A stretch of DNA of 64,000 bases from contig NZ_CP013940.1 of NCBI RefSeq assembly GCF_001277215.2, positions 1,178,001 to 1,242,000 of the forward strand. Reading direction: 5' to 3'. The notes under the pieces were generated by a model that did not search any database, was not told where the DNA came from, and worked only from the letters and a program-made list of their open reading frames with translations. This DNA comes from Cronobacter malonaticus LMG 23826 (GTDB taxonomy: Bacteria; Pseudomonadota; Gammaproteobacteria; Enterobacterales; Enterobacteriaceae). The translations under genes were made by a program, and so were the position numbers. Shown here piece after piece: positions 31,749 through 49,254 of the stretch. Position 1 is the stretch's first letter. Each line of letters starts with the position of its first letter.

Positions 31749-32606
31749 ATGATTTATCCTGATGAAGCGATGCTTTATGCGCCTGTCGAATGGCTCGACT
31801 GTTCGGAAGGTTACACCGATATCCGCTATCAGAAATCCACTGACGGCATCGCTAAAATCACCATCAACCGCCCGCAGGTGCGCAACGCGTTTCGCCCGCT
31901 CACCGTTAAAGAGATGATCCAGGCGCTGGCGAATGCACGCTATGACGACAATATCGGCGTCATTATCCTCACCGGCGAAGGCGATAAAGCCTTCTGCGCG
32001 GGCGGTGACCAGAAAGTGCGCGGCGACTACGGCGGCTATCAGGACGACTCCGGCGTGCATCATCTCAACGTGCTCGATTTCCAGCGTCAGATCCGTACCT
32101 GCCCGAAACCGGTGGTGGCGATGGTGGCGGGCTTTGCGATTGGCGGCGGCCACGTGCTGCATATGATGTGCGATCTCACGATTGCGGCGGAAAACGCCGT
32201 CTTCGGCCAGACCGGCCCGAAAGTCGGTTCGTTTGACGGCGGCTGGGGGGCGTCTTATATGGCGCGCATCGTCGGCCAGAAAAAGGCGCGTGAAATCTGG
32301 TTCCTGTGCCGTCAGTACGACGCGCAGCAGGCGCTGGATATGGGGCTGGTGAACACCGTCGTCCCGCTGGCGGAGCTTGAGAGAGAAACGGTGCGCTGGT
32401 GCCGCGAGATGCTGCAAAACAGCCCAATGGCGCTGCGCTGCCTGAAGGCGGCGCTCAACGCCGACTGCGACGGCCAGGCGGGGCTTCAGGAGTTGGCGGG
32501 CAATGCCACCATGCTCTTTTATATGACCGAAGAGGGTCAGGAAGGGCGCAACGCGTTCAACCAGAAGCGCCAGCCAGATTTCAGCAAATTCAAGCGTAAC
32601 CCATAA
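31749..32606 (+). CDS. menB: 1,4-dihydroxy-2-naphthoyl-CoA synthase MenB
   Basis: A 285-residue crotonase-fold enzyme that closes the second ring of the naphthoquinone from o-succinylbenzoyl-CoA. Crotonase oxyanion and CoA segments are visible in [16 protein letters not shown] and [39 protein letters not shown] matches the bicarbonate-dependent class, where a glycine replaces the usual acid. Length equals the E. coli enzyme. The stop overlaps the menC ATG by one base. Confidence 0.98.
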
Positions 32607-33607
32607 TGCGCGCGGCTCAGCTTTATCGTTATCAGGTGCCGATGGACGCTGGCGTGGTGCTGCGGGAGCGGCGCCTGAAAACCCGCGACGGCCTGCTGGT
32701 GCGCCTCTCTGACAACGGGGGCGAAGGGTGGGGCGAAGTTGCGCCGCTGCCTGGGTTTAGCGACGAGACGCTGGACACTGCGCTTGCCGCCGCGCGCGAC
32801 TGGCTTCTGGCATGGCAGCGGGGTGATTCGCTGCCGCTGCCGGAGGTGGCGAGCGTCGCGTTTGGTTTAAGCATGGCGCTGGCGGAGCTTCACGGCACGC
32901 TGCCCGAGGCCGGGAATTACCACGCTGCGCCGCTATGTACGGGCGATCCGGATGAACTCTTCGCACGCCTCGGCGGGCTGCACGGTGAGAAAGTCGCCAA
33001 AGTTAAAGTGGGGCTGCACGGTGAGAAAGTCGCCAAAGTTAAAGTGGGGCTGTATGAGGCGGTGCGCGACGGCATGGTGGTCAACCTGCTGCTGGAGGCG
33101 ATTCCCGATCTCACGCTGCGGCTCGACGCGAATCGCGCCTGGACGCCGCTGAAAGCGCAGCTGTTCGCGAAATACGTCAACCCGGCGTACCGCCCGCGCA
33201 TTGCGTTTATCGAAGAACCCTGCAAAACCCCCGATGATTCCCGCGCCTTCGCCGCCGAAACCGGCATCGCCATCGCCTGGGATGAAAGCCTGCGCGAGCG
33301 CGATTTTTCCATTACAGCGGAGCCTGGCCTGCGGGCGGTGGTGATAAAACCAATGCTCACCGGCAGCCTGCAAACGGTACAGCAACAGGTGGCGCAGGCT
33401 CACGCGCTGGGTCTGACGGCGGTCATCAGTTCCTCCATTGAGTCAAGCCTCGGCCTGACCCAGCTTGCGCGGCTTGCCGCCTGGCTGACACCGGGCATCA
33501 CGCCGGGGCTCGATACGCTCGCGCTGATGCAGGCTCAGCTGGTGCGCCCGTGGCCTGACAGCCCGCTGCCGTGCTGGCCTGTGGATGCGCTGGAGCCGCT
33601 GCTGTGA
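32606..33607 (+). CDS. menC: o-succinylbenzoate synthase MenC with internal 12-residue tandem duplication
   Basis: A 333-residue enolase-superfamily enzyme that dehydrates SHCHC to o-succinylbenzoate. Residues 124-135 ([12 protein letters not shown]) are repeated exactly as 136-147, followed by GLYEAVRDG; the E. coli enzyme (320 residues) has one copy. The repeat contains the Lys-x-Lys motif (131/133 in E. coli numbering, 133 being the catalytic base). The other active-site residues keep a uniform +13 offset: Asp174, Glu203 and Asp226 as metal ligands and Lys248 as second base, so copy two (Lys144, Lys146) has native spacing to the downstream barrel. The ATG overlaps the menB stop and the stop overlaps the menE GTG. 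Whether activity is kept cannot be told from sequence. Confidence 0.94.
32975..33046 (+). repeat. exact 36-bp in-frame tandem duplication inside menC
   Basis: Unit 1 (32975-33010) and unit 2 (33011-33046) are identical over 36 bp, and the identity runs on for six further bases (GGGCTG at 33047-33052). The ancestral single copy would therefore have been flanked by GGGCTG on both sides, a microhomology suited to replication slippage. The unit is a whole number of codons, so the reading frame is kept. Confidence 0.97.
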
Positions 33608-34980
33608 GTTTCTTCGACTGGCCGTGGCGTCATTGGGCGAGCGTGCGGCCGGATGACATCGCGCTGCGCGCCGACAATGGCGATATTACCTGGCGCGCGC
33701 TCTGCAGGCGGATTGATGCTCTCGCTGCGGGTTTTCACCAGCAGGGCGTGCGCGACGGCGACGGTGTGGCGCTGTGCGCGAAAAACAGCGAGCGAACGCT
33801 GCTCGCCTGGCTTGCGCTGTTGCAGTGCGGCGCGCGTATTTTGCCGCTTAATCCGCAACTTCCGGCGCCGTTAATCAACGCGCTGCTGCCGTCGCTCACG
33901 TTGCGTTATGTGGTTCGTATCGGTGATGCGCCCGCGCTGCCGGGCCTTACGTTGCTCGACTGGCGCGAGCCTGCGGTGGCTCATGCCGCGGCGTGGCAGG
34001 CCGATCGTCTGGTGTCCATGACGCTGACGTCCGGCTCCAGCGGACTGCCGAAAGCCGCCGTTCATACGGCGTTCGCGCATCTGGAGAACGCGAGGGGCGT
34101 GCTGAGCCTGATCCCGTTTCATGCCAGCGACTGCTGGCTGCTCTCGCTGCCGCTGTTTCACGTCTCCGGGCAGGGGATTTTCTGGCGCTGGCTGTGGGCA
34201 GGTGCGCAGCTTGCGGTGCGTGATTCCCTGCCGCTTTACGAGGCGCTGGAAGGCTGCACGCACGCCTCGCTGGTGCCGACCCAGCTCTGGCGGCTGTTAG
34301 CGATGCCGGAGCGTCGCCTGAGCCTCAAAGCCGTGTTGCTCGGCGGTGCTGCGATCCCGGTTGCGCTGACGCAAGCGGCGGCGCAGCGTGATATCGCCTG
34401 CTGGTGCGGTTACGGACTGACGGAGTTTGCCTCCACGGTGTGCGCGAAGCGCGCCGACGGCGAGGCTGATGTAGGTACGGCGCTGCCGGGGCGCGAGGTG
34501 ATGCTCGCGGGCGATGAGATCTGGTTGCGCGGCAGCAGCATGGCCGCAGGCTACTGGCGCGACGGCGAACTGATGCCGCTCACCAATGCGCAGGGCTGGT
34601 TCGCCACCCGCGACCGCGGCGCGTGGCGCGACGGTAAATTACTGGTGCCCGGACGGCTGGATAATCTTTTTTTCTGCGGTGGGGAAGGCGTTCAGCCGGA
34701 GGCGGTCGAGCGCGTGCTGAGCCAGCATCCGCAGGTGCGACAGGCGTTTGTCGTCCCGCTGGAGGATGACGAGTTCGGCGCGCGGCCGGTGGCAGTCATC
34801 GAGTGTGAGGCGTCGTTTGAGCCGCAGGCGCTGCGCCTGTGGGCAAACGACAAGCTGGCGCGATTTGAGCAGCCGGTCGCCTGGCTTCGGTTGCCTGAAG
34901 CGCTTAAAAACGGCGGGATTAAAATTTCCCGCCGTGACGTTACGCAATGGGCGACAAATACGCTCCGCCCGCAAACATAA
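33604..34980 (+). CDS. menE: o-succinylbenzoate-CoA ligase MenE
   Basis: A 458-residue adenylate-forming enzyme that activates o-succinylbenzoate to its CoA thioester. The P-loop-like core is [17 protein letters not shown] (near residue 140); [16 protein letters not shown], the ATRDRG hinge and [20 protein letters not shown] follow, and the C-terminal catalytic lysine lies in [16 protein letters not shown] 33604 overlaps the menC TGA by three bases and gives an N terminus ([16 protein letters not shown]) matching E. coli. It is the last gene of menFDHBCE and converges on tctA. Confidence 0.96.
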
Positions 34981-45274: not shown

Positions 45275-46405
45275 TCAGAGCTGGAAGCTGCTCAGATCGT
45301 CATGGTCGATTTCCGAATCGATCTGGCCGACCAGATAAGAGCTCACTTCCACTTCCTGCGGCGCTACCTGTACGTTATCAGACACCAGCCAGGTGTTGAT
45401 CCAGGGAATCGGGTTGGAGCGGGTTTTGAACGGCAGATCCAGACCGACAGCCTGCATACGGATGTTGGTGATGTACTCAACGTACTGGCAGAGAATATCT
45501 TTGTTCAGACCGATCATGGAACCGCCCTGGAACAGATATTCCGCCCACTCTTTCTCCTGCTGCGCCGCCAGCACGAACAGGTCGTAGCACTCCTGTTTGC
45601 ACTCTTCGGCAATCGCGGCCATTTCCGGATCGTCTTCGCCGCTGCGCATCAGGTTCAGCATGTGCTGGGTGCCGGTCAGGTGCAGCGCTTCGTCACGCGC
45701 GATAAGGCGGATGATTTTGGCGTTGCCTTCCATCAGTTCGCGCTCGGCGAACGCGAAGGAGCAGGCGAAGCTGACGTAGAAGCGAATCGCTTCCAGCGCG
45801 TTGACGCTCATCAGGCACAGGTAGAGTTTTTTCTTAAGCTCGTGCAGGTTCACGGTCACGGTTTTGCCGTTAACGCTGTGGGTGCCTTCGCCCAGCAGGT
45901 GCCAGTAGCTGGTCATCTCGATCAGATCGTCGTAGTAGTGCGAGATGCCTTCGGCGCGCTTTAAGATCTGCTCGTTGGTGACGATATCGTCAAACACCAC
46001 CGCCGGATCGTTGACGATATTGCGGATGATGTGGGTGTAAGAGCGCGAGTGGATGGTCTCGGAAAACGCCCAGGTTTCGACCCACGTTTCCAGCTCCGGG
46101 ATGGAGATCAGCGGCAGCAGCGCGACGTTCGGGCTGCGGCCCTGGATTGAGTCGAGCAGCGTCTGGTATTTCAGGTTGCTGATGAAAATATGTTTTTCAT
46201 GCTCCGGCAGCGCCTGGAAATCGATGCGGTCGCGGGAAACGTCCACTTCTTCAGGACGCCAGAAGAATGACAGCTGCTTTTCGATAAGCTTTTCGAAAAT
46301 TTCATATTTTTGCTGATCGTAACGCGCCACGTTGACCGGTTGGCCAAAAAACATGGGTTCAAGGAGCTGGTCGTTTTTCGTCTGTGAAAATGTGGTGTAG
46401 GCCAT
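45275..46405 (-). CDS. nrdB: ribonucleoside-diphosphate reductase class Ia beta subunit NrdB
   Basis: A 376-residue radical-generating subunit. Conserved diiron and radical segments are visible: [17 protein letters not shown] (Asp region), [19 protein letters not shown] with Glu and His ligands and the radical tyrosine, and [17 protein letters not shown] with the second Glu and His set. The C-terminal tail [14 protein letters not shown], which docks to NrdA, is intact. ATG 46405 gives [14 protein letters not shown] as in E. coli; eight further upstream codons run towards the repeat array and are rejected. nrdA lies 274 bp upstream across REP-like repeats. Confidence 0.98.
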
Positions 46406-46432
46406 GACGTAAATCCTGTCTGCAAACAATAT

Positions 46433-46643
46433 CGGCTGTTAACGGTGGGTGCGCTTCGCTTACCCACCCTACGGCCAACGGTTCGGCTGTTAACGGTGGG
46501 TGCGCTTTGCTTACCCACCCTACGGCCAACGGTTCGGCTGTTAAGGGTGGGGCGCTTTGCTTACCCACCTTACGGCCAACGGTTCGGCTGTTAAGGGTTC
46601 GGCTGTAAATGGTGGGTGTGCTTCGCTTACCCACCCTACGGCC
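46433..46643 (-). repeat. array of four REP-like GTAG hairpins between nrdA and nrdB
   Basis: Four units of about 51 bp: 46433-46483, 46484-46534, 46535-46584 and 46600-46643, plus a 15-bp fragment at 46585-46599. Each contains a GGTGGGT / ACCCACC stem around an 11-base loop, flanked (minus strand) by a 5' GTAG, the hallmark of RAYT-associated REP elements. All four share one orientation. Units 1 and 2 differ by one base; unit 3 has a base deletion and substitutions, unit 4 is diverged. No coding function. REP assignment rests on the GTAG-plus-hairpin form. Confidence 0.8.
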
Positions 46644-46679: not shown

Positions 46680-48965
46680 TTAGATTTTACATGCGCCGCT
46701 TTCGCAGCCGTCATCCTGAATGGATGGCGCCAGGTCATCCTGGGCATCTTCCGCGCCGTCGCGGGTGTTCTGATAATACAGCGTCTTCACACCGAGCTTA
46801 TAGGCGGTGAGCAGGTCTTTCAGGAGCTGCTGCATCGGCACTTTGCCTGACGGGAAGCGCGTCGGATCGTAGTTGGTGTTGGCAGAAATCGACTGGTCGA
46901 TAAATTTCTGCATGATGCCCACCAGCTGCAGATAGCCGTCGTTGCCCGGCATTTCCCACAGCAGCTCGTACTGATCTTTGAGCTGTTCGTAGTCCGGCAC
47001 CACCTGACGCAGGATACCGTCTTTCGAGGCTTTGATGCTGATGTGGCCGCGCGGCGGCTCAATGCCGTTGGTGGCGTTAGAGATCTGCGAAGAGGTCTCG
47101 GACGGCATCAACGCAGACAGCGTGGAGTTACGCAGGCCGTGCGTCTTGATGGATTCGCGCAGGCTTTCCCAGTCGTAGTGCAGCGGCTCGCTGGCGATCG
47201 CATCCAGGTCTTTCTTATAGGTGTCGATCGGCAGGATGCCTTTACTGTAGGTGGTTTCATTGAACCACGGGCATGCGCCTTGCTCTTTCGCCAGCTCGTT
47301 AGAGGCTTTCAGCAGATAGTACTGAATCGCTTCGAACGTTTTGTGCGTCAGGTTGTTGGCGCTGCCGTCGGAGTAACGCACGCCGTGCTTCGCGAGATAG
47401 TAAGCGAAGTTAATCACGCCGATGCCGAGGGTGCGACGACCCATCGCGCCGCGTTTCGCCGCCGGGATCGGGTAATCCTGGTAGTCCAGCAGGGCGTCCA
47501 GCGCGCGAACGGCCAGCGTGGAAAGCTCTTCCAGCTCGTCCAGGCTCTCGATAGCGCCCAGGTTGAAAGCAGACAGGGTGCAAAGCGCGATTTCGCCGTT
47601 TTCGTCGTTTACATCATCCAGCGGTTTGGTCGGCAGCGCGATTTCCAGGCACAGGTTAGACTGGCGCACCGGCGCGACAACCGGATCGAACGGGCTGTGG
47701 GTGTTGCAGTGATCCACGTTCTGGATGTAGATACGGCCGGTAGAGGCGCGCTCCTGCATCATCAGCGAGAACAGCTCAGAGGCTTTAATGCGCTGTTTGC
47801 GGATGTTCTCGTCCTGCTCATATTTGGTGTACAGACGCTCGAACTCGTCCTGATCAGCGAAGAATGCGTCATACAGGCCCGGCACGTCGGACGGGCTGAA
47901 CAGCGTGATGTCTTCGCCTTTCAGCAGGCGCTGGTACATGAGCTTGTTGATCTGTACGCCGTAGTCCATGTGACGCACGCGGTTCGCTTCGGTACCGCGG
48001 TTGTTTTTCAGCACCAGCAGGCTTTCGACTTCCAGATGCCACATCGGGTAGAAGAGGGTGGCCGCGCCGCCGCGAACGCCGCCCTGCGAGCAGGATTTCA
48101 CCGCGGTCTGGAAATGCTTGTAGAATGGAATGCAACCGGTGTGGAACGCTTCGCCGCCACGAATCGGGCTGCCGAGTGCACGGATGCGGCCCGCGTTAAT
48201 GCCGATACCGGCGCGCTGGGAAACGTATTTCACGATGGCGCTGGAGGTGGCGTTGATGGAATCCAGGCTGTCGCCGCACTCGATCAGTACGCAGGAGCTG
48301 AACTGACGGGTCGGGGTGCGCACGCCGGACATGATCGGCGTCGGCAGTGAAATTTTAAACGTAGAGACCGCATCATAGAAACGCTTCACGTAATCCAGAC
48401 GGGTTTCGCGCGGGTAGTTAGAGAACAGGCACGCTGCGACCAGAATGTAGAGGAACTGCGCGCTTTCGTAGATCTCGCCGGTAACGCGGTTCTGAACGAG
48501 GTATTTCCCTTCGAGCTGCTTCACGGCGGCGTAGGAGAAGTTCATATCGCGCCAGTGGTCGATGAAGCCGTCCATCTGCGCAAACTCTTCTTCGCTGTAA
48601 TCCTGCAGCAGGTGGTGGTCATATTTACCCAGCTCCACCATCTTCACGACGTGGTCGTACAGTTTCGGCGGCTCGAACTGACCGTAGGCTTTTTTGCGCA
48701 GGTGGAAAATCGCCAGGCGCGCGGCCAGGTACTGGTAATCCGGCGCGTCGCGGGAGATAAGATCCGCCGCCGCCTTGATGATGGTTTCATGAATATCGGA
48801 GGTTTTGATGCCGTCGTAGAACTGAATGTGAGAACGCAGCTCTACCTGGGAGATGGAGACGTTATGCAGACCTTCCGCAGCCCAGTCCAGAACACGATGA
48901 ATTTTATCCAGGTTAATGCGTTCCTGGCTGCCATCTCGTTTTGTTACCAGCAGACTCTGATTCAT
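46680..48965 (-). CDS. nrdA: ribonucleoside-diphosphate reductase class Ia alpha subunit NrdA
   Basis: A 761-residue catalytic subunit, the E. coli length. The N-terminal ATP-cone covers about residues 1-95 (VTKRDGSQERINLDKIHRVL). Active-site features include SSCVLIECGDSLDSINATSS (cysteine of the redox pair), RQSNLCLEIALPT (the thiyl-radical and partner cysteines) and the C-terminal CESGACKI with the two shuttle cysteines. ATG 48965 gives MNQSLLVTKRDGS; 51 extra upstream codons are rejected because they cross the DnaA and NrdR sites. First gene of nrdA-nrdB-yfaE. Confidence 0.98.
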   Translation of the reverse strand: MNQSLLVTKRDGSQERINLDKIHRVLDWAAEGLHNVSISQVELRSHIQFYDGIKTSDIHETIIKAAADLISRDAPDYQYLAARLAIFHLRKKAYGQFEPPKLYDHVVKMVELGKYDHHLLQDYSEEEFAQMDGFIDHWRDMNFSYAAVKQLEGKYLVQNRVTGEIYESAQFLYILVAACLFSNYPRETRLDYVKRFYDAVSTFKISLPTPIMSGVRTPTRQFSSCVLIECGDSLDSINATSSAIVKYVSQRAGIGINAGRIRALGSPIRGGEAFHTGCIPFYKHFQTAVKSCSQGGVRGGAATLFYPMWHLEVESLLVLKNNRGTEANRVRHMDYGVQINKLMYQRLLKGEDITLFSPSDVPGLYDAFFADQDEFERLYTKYEQDENIRKQRIKASELFSLMMQERASTGRIYIQNVDHCNTHSPFDPVVAPVRQSNLCLEIALPTKPLDDVNDENGEIALCTLSAFNLGAIESLDELEELSTLAVRALDALLDYQDYPIPAAKRGAMGRRTLGIGVINFAYYLAKHGVRYSDGSANNLTHKTFEAIQYYLLKASNELAKEQGACPWFNETTYSKGILPIDTYKKDLDAIASEPLHYDWESLRESIKTHGLRNSTLSALMPSETSSQISNATNGIEPPRGHISIKASKDGILRQVVPDYEQLKDQYELLWEMPGNDGYLQLVGIMQKFIDQSISANTNYDPTRFPSGKVPMQQLLKDLLTAYKLGVKTLYYQNTRDGAEDAQDDLAPSIQDDGCESGACKI

Positions 48966-49012
48966 GGGTAATACCTGTCCGTGAAATCCGTGAAAATAGA
49001 AATATCCCCCGC

Positions 49013-49088
49013 TTATCCACAAGTGACTAACTCTGTGGATAAATACTATATATAGGGGGTTTGAGATAAGTGAAACGCTATATGGTGA
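49013..49088 (-). promoter_or_regulatory. nrdA control region: two DnaA boxes and two NrdR-like boxes
   Basis: TTATCCACA at 49013-49021 and its complement TGTGGATAA at 49034-49042 are two perfect DnaA boxes facing each other. Two NrdR-type palindromes follow: 49043-49058 (core CTATATATAG) and 49073-49088 (core CTATATGG with GTGA). Their centres are 30 bp apart, close to three helical turns, as expected for cooperative NrdR binding. DnaA and NrdR are established regulators of nrdAB in E. coli; use here is inference. Confidence 0.75.
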
Positions 49089-49254
49089 GTATTCTAGTCC
49101 GGATTCTTTTGAGAACAAGGCTTGATTTCGATGTTAATTTGCGGTTGCAAAATCTCAAAATTAAGTAAGTCCTCATCGCATAAGGGCTTGAGGGCTTGTC
49201 AAGGCGGCAGGAAAAAAAATGAAAATTTGATCGAACGCTGATTTCCTGGTCAGG

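Follow-up and report, generated by a model that had tools for sequence, protein, structure and literature searches.

The menC gene of Cronobacter malonaticus LMG 23826, which encodes o-succinylbenzoate synthase (OSBS), carries an exact in-frame tandem duplication of 36 bp that doubles the barrel strand with the catalytic Lys-x-Lys motif, and this duplication is most likely recent and either neutral or mildly harmful. The gene (32606..33607, 333 aa, plus strand like all features of the locus given here) lies in the window, i.e. the 64,000-nucleotide stretch of DNA that was analysed (positions 1,178,001 to 1,242,000 of contig NZ_CP013940.1). Copy 1 of the unit occupies 32975..33010 (residues 124-135, with Lys132 and Lys134) and copy 2 occupies 33011..33046 (residues 136-147, with Lys144 and Lys146, the counterparts of E. 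coli Lys131 and Lys133). As the initial annotation had described, the copies are adjacent and 100% identical. Tandem Repeats Finder placed them in a single array at 32975-33052 (period 36, 2.2 copies, 100% match), and the match of menC to itself at an offset of 36 runs over 42 bases, comprising the 36-bp unit and a GGGCTG at 33047..33052, a microhomology of 6 bp that lines up with the first bases of both copies.

We conducted several control searches on the repeat. First, probing the whole genome for the 36-bp unit with up to 3 mismatches returned two forward sites and no reverse site, and the reversed-pattern control returned none. Second, an exact tandem duplication (unit of 10-199 bp, with a matching run at least as long as the unit and of at least 20 bp) appeared in 0 of 200 codon-shuffled versions of menC; a chance origin of the duplication is excluded. 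Third, a scan for units of 10-999 bp over 904 kb (the 64-kb window, 40 kb from two smaller contigs and 800 kb of chromosome) identified menC as the sole place with an exact tandem duplication of a unit of at least 25 bp in an open frame of at least 150 codons.

The genes menD, menH, menB, menC and menE (NCBIfam names) are consecutive in the window, and menC sits between menB (31749..32606; NF005637, 532.2 bits) and menE (33604..34980; NF006539, 690.9 bits), as expected of a MenC of the gamma-proteobacterial type. The menB stop codon and the menC start share one base, and the GTG start of menE at 33604, which is our choice over a longer frame from 33571 in the ORF list, overlaps the menC stop. 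The protein scores 484.9 bits against NF003473 (cut-off 236) and 389.4 bits against TIGR01927 (cut-off 130.55), each model matching in two stretches, and Pfam MenC_N and MR_MLE_C also exceed their cut-offs: a two-copy MenC clears the family models far above cut-off without warning.

The duplication is a real sequence feature of one PacBio-only assembly. C. malonaticus LMG 23826T has a closed genome, which was obtained with PacBio RSII, HGAP, minimus2 and Quiver, short reads not being named (PMC4807230), and an independent LMG 23826T draft of 69 contigs, AJKV00000000, is mentioned in an excerpt of PMC3680222. It is improbable that the second copy is false and arose in the deposited sequence: such an error would fit with a single assembly for which no short-read polishing is named and with the lack of another record of the two-copy form, which is absent among 321 protein representatives, but a clean in-frame duplication that ends in the 6-bp microhomology of its congeners is what slippage produces, and the other 840 kb scanned from this genome, the only one scanned, contain no second exact tandem duplication whose unit reaches 25 bp in a frame of at least 150 codons. 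PacBio reads easily span 78 bp and err mainly by single-base indels, which also argues against an artefact.

The comparison across strains and relatives that the initial annotation had proposed revealed no wide spread of the two-copy form, as all 109 loci read in relatives hold one copy of the strand. Matches to menC were present in 38 of 60 relatives, source genome included, and the 29 loci fetched from the 37 other matching genomes are all one-copy, the strand having been left unread in 8 distant genomes among the 37. The same holds for 80 of 80 further relatives' loci (out of 305 confirmed). Moreover, 251 of 392 family genomes match menC, and among the matches listed for these genomes none is longer than 966 bp, as judged by eye from the lengths, except that of the source genome itself (999 bp).

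At the protein level, the best-scoring matches to the window MenC are C. malonaticus MenC proteins, of which the closest full-length ones have 321 aa. One copy is found in each of P0001-P0006, which are 321 aa long and of which all but the unlabelled P0005 bear a C. malonaticus label, and likewise in P0012, a MenC fragment of 274 aa. Aligned with the window MenC, P0001 shows 6 differences over 321 residues and P0012 shows 4 over 274. Three protein searches failed to reveal the doubled sequence among the 321 protein representatives of a database clustered at 90%, in which 39 member sequences of P0001 are hidden and two-copy strains could hide inside clusters. A two-copy representative should top a search in which only residues 113-160 are scored, and among the best 120 of 477 matches the one protein placed ahead of the one-copy proteins was P0013, which has a different and longer duplication. 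Copy number differs only between the source strain and other strains in these data (109 loci; proteins clustered at 90%). No published account of such a menC duplication was found in the titles and abstract openings of the literature on menC and Cronobacter or on duplication and o-succinylbenzoate synthase.

The one-copy relatives also bear on the origin of the repeat. In the congeners L002 and L007 the single segment is bounded on both sides by GGGCTG, 36 bp apart, and the borders of the duplication coincide with these same sites, which upholds the earlier suggestion of slippage between GGGCTG microhomologies. The left GGGCTG site is off by one or two bases in the remaining 4 of 6 congeners, and the full pair was found in 2 of 6 congeners and 2 of the 107 loci read for it (109 minus L024 and L030). 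Exact copies side by side, with microhomology at both borders of the ancestral segment, are the pattern of a slipped-strand duplication, and slippage is the simple origin because the 6-bp microhomologies flank the one-copy segment 36 bp apart in congeners. With respect to age, the initial annotation had considered the repeat either recent or kept homogeneous. We favor a recent event because the two-copy form is restricted to one strain in the data (0 of 109 relatives' loci), exactness over 36 bp by itself being a weak clock, and we found no evidence that the copies are kept homogeneous.

On balance, we think that a recent slippage event in this strain probably placed copy 2 in the barrel and left copy 1 looped out, with activity kept or reduced and little effect on aerobic fitness. 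The two GGGCTG sites lying 36 bp apart on either side of the strand-2 segment of menC would have mispaired during replication, leading to the 36-bp segment being copied twice. As 36 is a multiple of three, the reading frame and the overlap with menE are intact. Copy 2 would then most likely form barrel strand 2, with Lys144 and Lys146 taking the places of E. coli Lys131 and Lys133, and copy 1 would bulge out as a loop that joins helix alpha1 to strand 2, on the barrel face opposite the active site. OSBS activity would be kept or reduced, and the allele would be near-neutral in aerobic culture.

The assignment of copy 2 to the barrel builds on its spacing. The positions of E. coli Lys131, Lys133, Asp161, Glu190, Asp213 and Lys235, the catalytic residues of the OSBS barrel, correspond to residues 144, 146, 174, 203, 226 and 248 of the window protein, which reproduces the uniform offset of 13 noted earlier and resolves it: the duplication accounts for 12 residues, and a capping domain that differs from the E. 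coli one by a single residue in length accounts for 1. The alignment shows no loss at any of the six catalytic positions. Copy 2 is natively spaced to the remaining active site (Asp174, Glu203, Asp226 and Lys248), as had been claimed, and Asp174 (codon 33125..33127; E. coli Asp161), the first listed active-site residue past the repeat, is Asp in 286 of 287 relatives.

To place the 12 extra residues, we determined the lengths on either side of the strand in 287 one-copy MenC proteins, i.e. the 321 proteins without those shorter than 290 aa or longer than 345 aa and without P0013. Relative to E. coli, the G112-K133 interval is longer in 43 of the 287 [-1 (7 proteins), 0 (237), +1 (8), +2 (32), +3 (1), +4 (1), +5 (1)] and the K133-D161 interval is of equal length in 280 and one residue longer in 7, these counts being drawn from related proteins chosen by similarity and hence not independent. 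On the basis of this length variation, insertions are tolerated ahead of the strand and scarcely behind it, and we infer that copy 1 is the one extruded, in the alpha1-beta2 loop. The +12 that the window protein itself shows before the strand is a placement by the aligner and carries no evidence for the register. With copy 2 as strand 2, everything downstream would be native and the 12 extra residues would lie at the barrel end away from the active site; with copy 1 as strand 2, they would follow strand 2, ahead of helix alpha2 and on the active-site side of the barrel. The earlier statement that one copy must be extruded or the enzyme impaired is sharpened by the family lengths, which suggest copy 1, before the strand, as the extruded one and make impairment a weaker alternative than it first seemed.

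In favor of that alternative, the largest insertion seen at this site is +5, under half of 12, and reduced stability is possible with 12 residues so well beyond it. One natural one-copy MenC (L024) has four extra residues before the strand. An extruded, valine-rich strand sequence could compete for strand 2 or aggregate. In the extreme case, the real duplication would break the enzyme through competition of the copies for strand 2, leading to misfolding or inactivity and little or no menaquinone, which would go unnoticed aerobically. We regard this outcome as rather unlikely. It draws on the size of the insertion and on the tolerance of aerobic E. coli to loss of menC, but length varies more in the loop preceding strand 2 than on the other side of the strand, and menC exhibits no further decay; menA and frdA are also kept, which says little for so recent an event.

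The tolerance is indicated by several reports. A revertant of E. coli that still carried IS186 in menC matched the wild type in growth and colonies (PMC5371073), menC mutations occurred in 5 DM25-evolved genomes (PMC7299349) and the mutations listed for heat-evolved E. coli include a menC frameshift (PMC10044804). As aerobic E. coli copes with the loss of menC, an allele of good or of poor function could persist. Two menC variant counts for evolved E. coli (PMC4079197) do not enter the argument, and the passages of PMC8018945 name menC only for small colony variants of S. aureus.

As to the state of the gene, menC of the window has no stop codon inside, and full-length open matches to menA and frdA are present in the source genome. 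The dN/dS values of the window menC were 0.244 versus L002 and 0.223 versus L003, compared to 0.201 for L002 versus L003, averages that are blind to a recent loss of function. As a sign of relaxed selection on menC, these values show no clear excess, lying slightly above the congener pair. For the neighbors, dN/dS was 0.019-0.049 in menB and, versus L002, L003 and L005, 0.183, 0.178 and 0.136 in menE; the menE values versus L004, L006 and L007 (about 0.30) are implausibly high and probably reflect a frame or alignment fault, and menE was left out of the argument. Q186L is the only private substitution of the window MenC against seven closely similar proteins, and Leu at this position also occurs in the distant relative L025. 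Together with the slightly raised dN/dS, it may hint at relaxed constraint.

We then asked whether the repeat could act as a switch. The initial annotation had considered menaquinone synthesis potentially switchable, an idea that gained no support, as both forms were not seen in one population. Direct repeats can recombine, and the two direct copies could do so in principle. Nonetheless, it is highly improbable that menC is a reversible contingency locus whose repeat changes in copy number frequently enough to turn menaquinone synthesis on and off in a population: there are only two copies, the two-copy form occurs in no other strain or species, a mixed population was not visible, and among the 321 proteins two Lys-x-Lys motifs occur only in P0013, whose 76-residue unit is a different one. 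For such a locus, a passage on tuberculosis can be cited from an excerpt of PMC12817950. Distinctly improbable, too, is a two-register enzyme in which an active fold with copy 2 in the barrel and copy 1 looped out beneath it, and an inactive fold with copy 1 in the barrel and copy 2 looped across the active site, would be in exchange, and in which the repeat could also collapse genetically.

In-frame repeat insertions in enzymes and the toleration of inserted or displaced strands are already known; what is unusual here is that the catalytic strand of a housekeeping enzyme is affected, and in a type strain. E. coli MenC (PDB 1FHU, 1FHV, 1R6W and 2OFJ) belongs to the same family, with residues 1-333 of the window protein aligning to 1-320 of 1FHU (E 3.1e-143) and all catalytic positions present, but lacks the 12 residues that double the Lys-x-Lys strand. 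An in-frame tandem duplication that doubles this strand is also present in the 396-aa, E. coli-like MenC P0013, but the unit there is 76 residues, exact at the protein level, and P0013 is known from the protein alone, from a single unverified ENA contig of 20,450 bp. KPC beta-lactamases offer natural repeat-mediated in-frame insertions within an enzyme gene, with 42 variants, but the two insertions that the abstract names measure 3 and 6 bp and are drug-selected (PMC12593533), whereas that of menC is 36 bp and has no known selection.

Structural parallels come from two further reports. In engineered insertions of T4 lysozyme and with the nine-residue insert of Piccolo C2A, an insert within secondary structure can be absorbed or can displace a native strand (PMC2924343); those are engineered or splice forms, whereas menC is natural and has two identical copies of a catalytic strand. 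If it did adopt two registers, the menC enzyme would provide a natural parallel, within a catalytic strand, to the insertions engineered in T4 lysozyme. In the beta-strand slip of ARNT PAS-B, one strand takes two registers in one fold (PMC9119131), but there the strand is single-copy and the protein a human point mutant.

The allele amounts to a natural experiment in which an enolase-superfamily barrel faces a second copy of its catalytic strand, and natural one-copy alleles, the closest of them only 6 of 321 residues away, are available as controls. If the allele is weak, the anaerobic physiology of the type strain would be unrepresentative of the species.

Irregular menC sequences were also encountered among the relatives. 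At L028 (G032:C1:3037711-3038304, minus strand), menC seems to lack about 30 in-frame residues compared to L026, just before the catalytic strand and including helix alpha1, and this shortening falls where the window menC is lengthened. At L029 (G034:C1:1626228-1627164; same family, genome 49% complete), menC is split into three parts, with a single TAG and shifts of frame; its strand can be read and is one-copy. P0191 is a 423-aa frame on a 1,798-bp contig that fuses a broken MenC to the start of MenE (PF13378, PF00501), probably owing to frameshifted sequence.

Finally, the 904-kb scan printed 14 exact tandem repeats that make up 13 distinct arrays, one 8-bp array appearing at two periods. 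Three arrays have a unit of at least 25 bp, and the two besides menC carry GC-rich palindromes, one without an open frame of at least 100 codons and one in a 102-codon frame. Within the window, a tandem array at 46432-46598 (51-bp period, 3.3 copies, 96% match) consists of a palindromic GGTGGGTGCGCTTNGCTTACCCACC-like element and lies between the minus-strand genes at 46680-49118 and 45275-46429, which from their translations we take to be nrdA-like and nrdB-like, respectively, the called start of the latter being perhaps too long. Exact tandem arrays of GC-rich palindromes of similar look, with 56- and 48-bp units, occur on the same chromosome at L128 5528-5675 and L139 9021-9127, indicating that such elements form tandem arrays repeatedly. 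At L127 3883-3954, nine exact copies of the 8-bp GCAGTAAA (periods 16 and 24) lie in a 132-codon frame, a candidate frame-shifting simple repeat that would be more contingency-like than menC.
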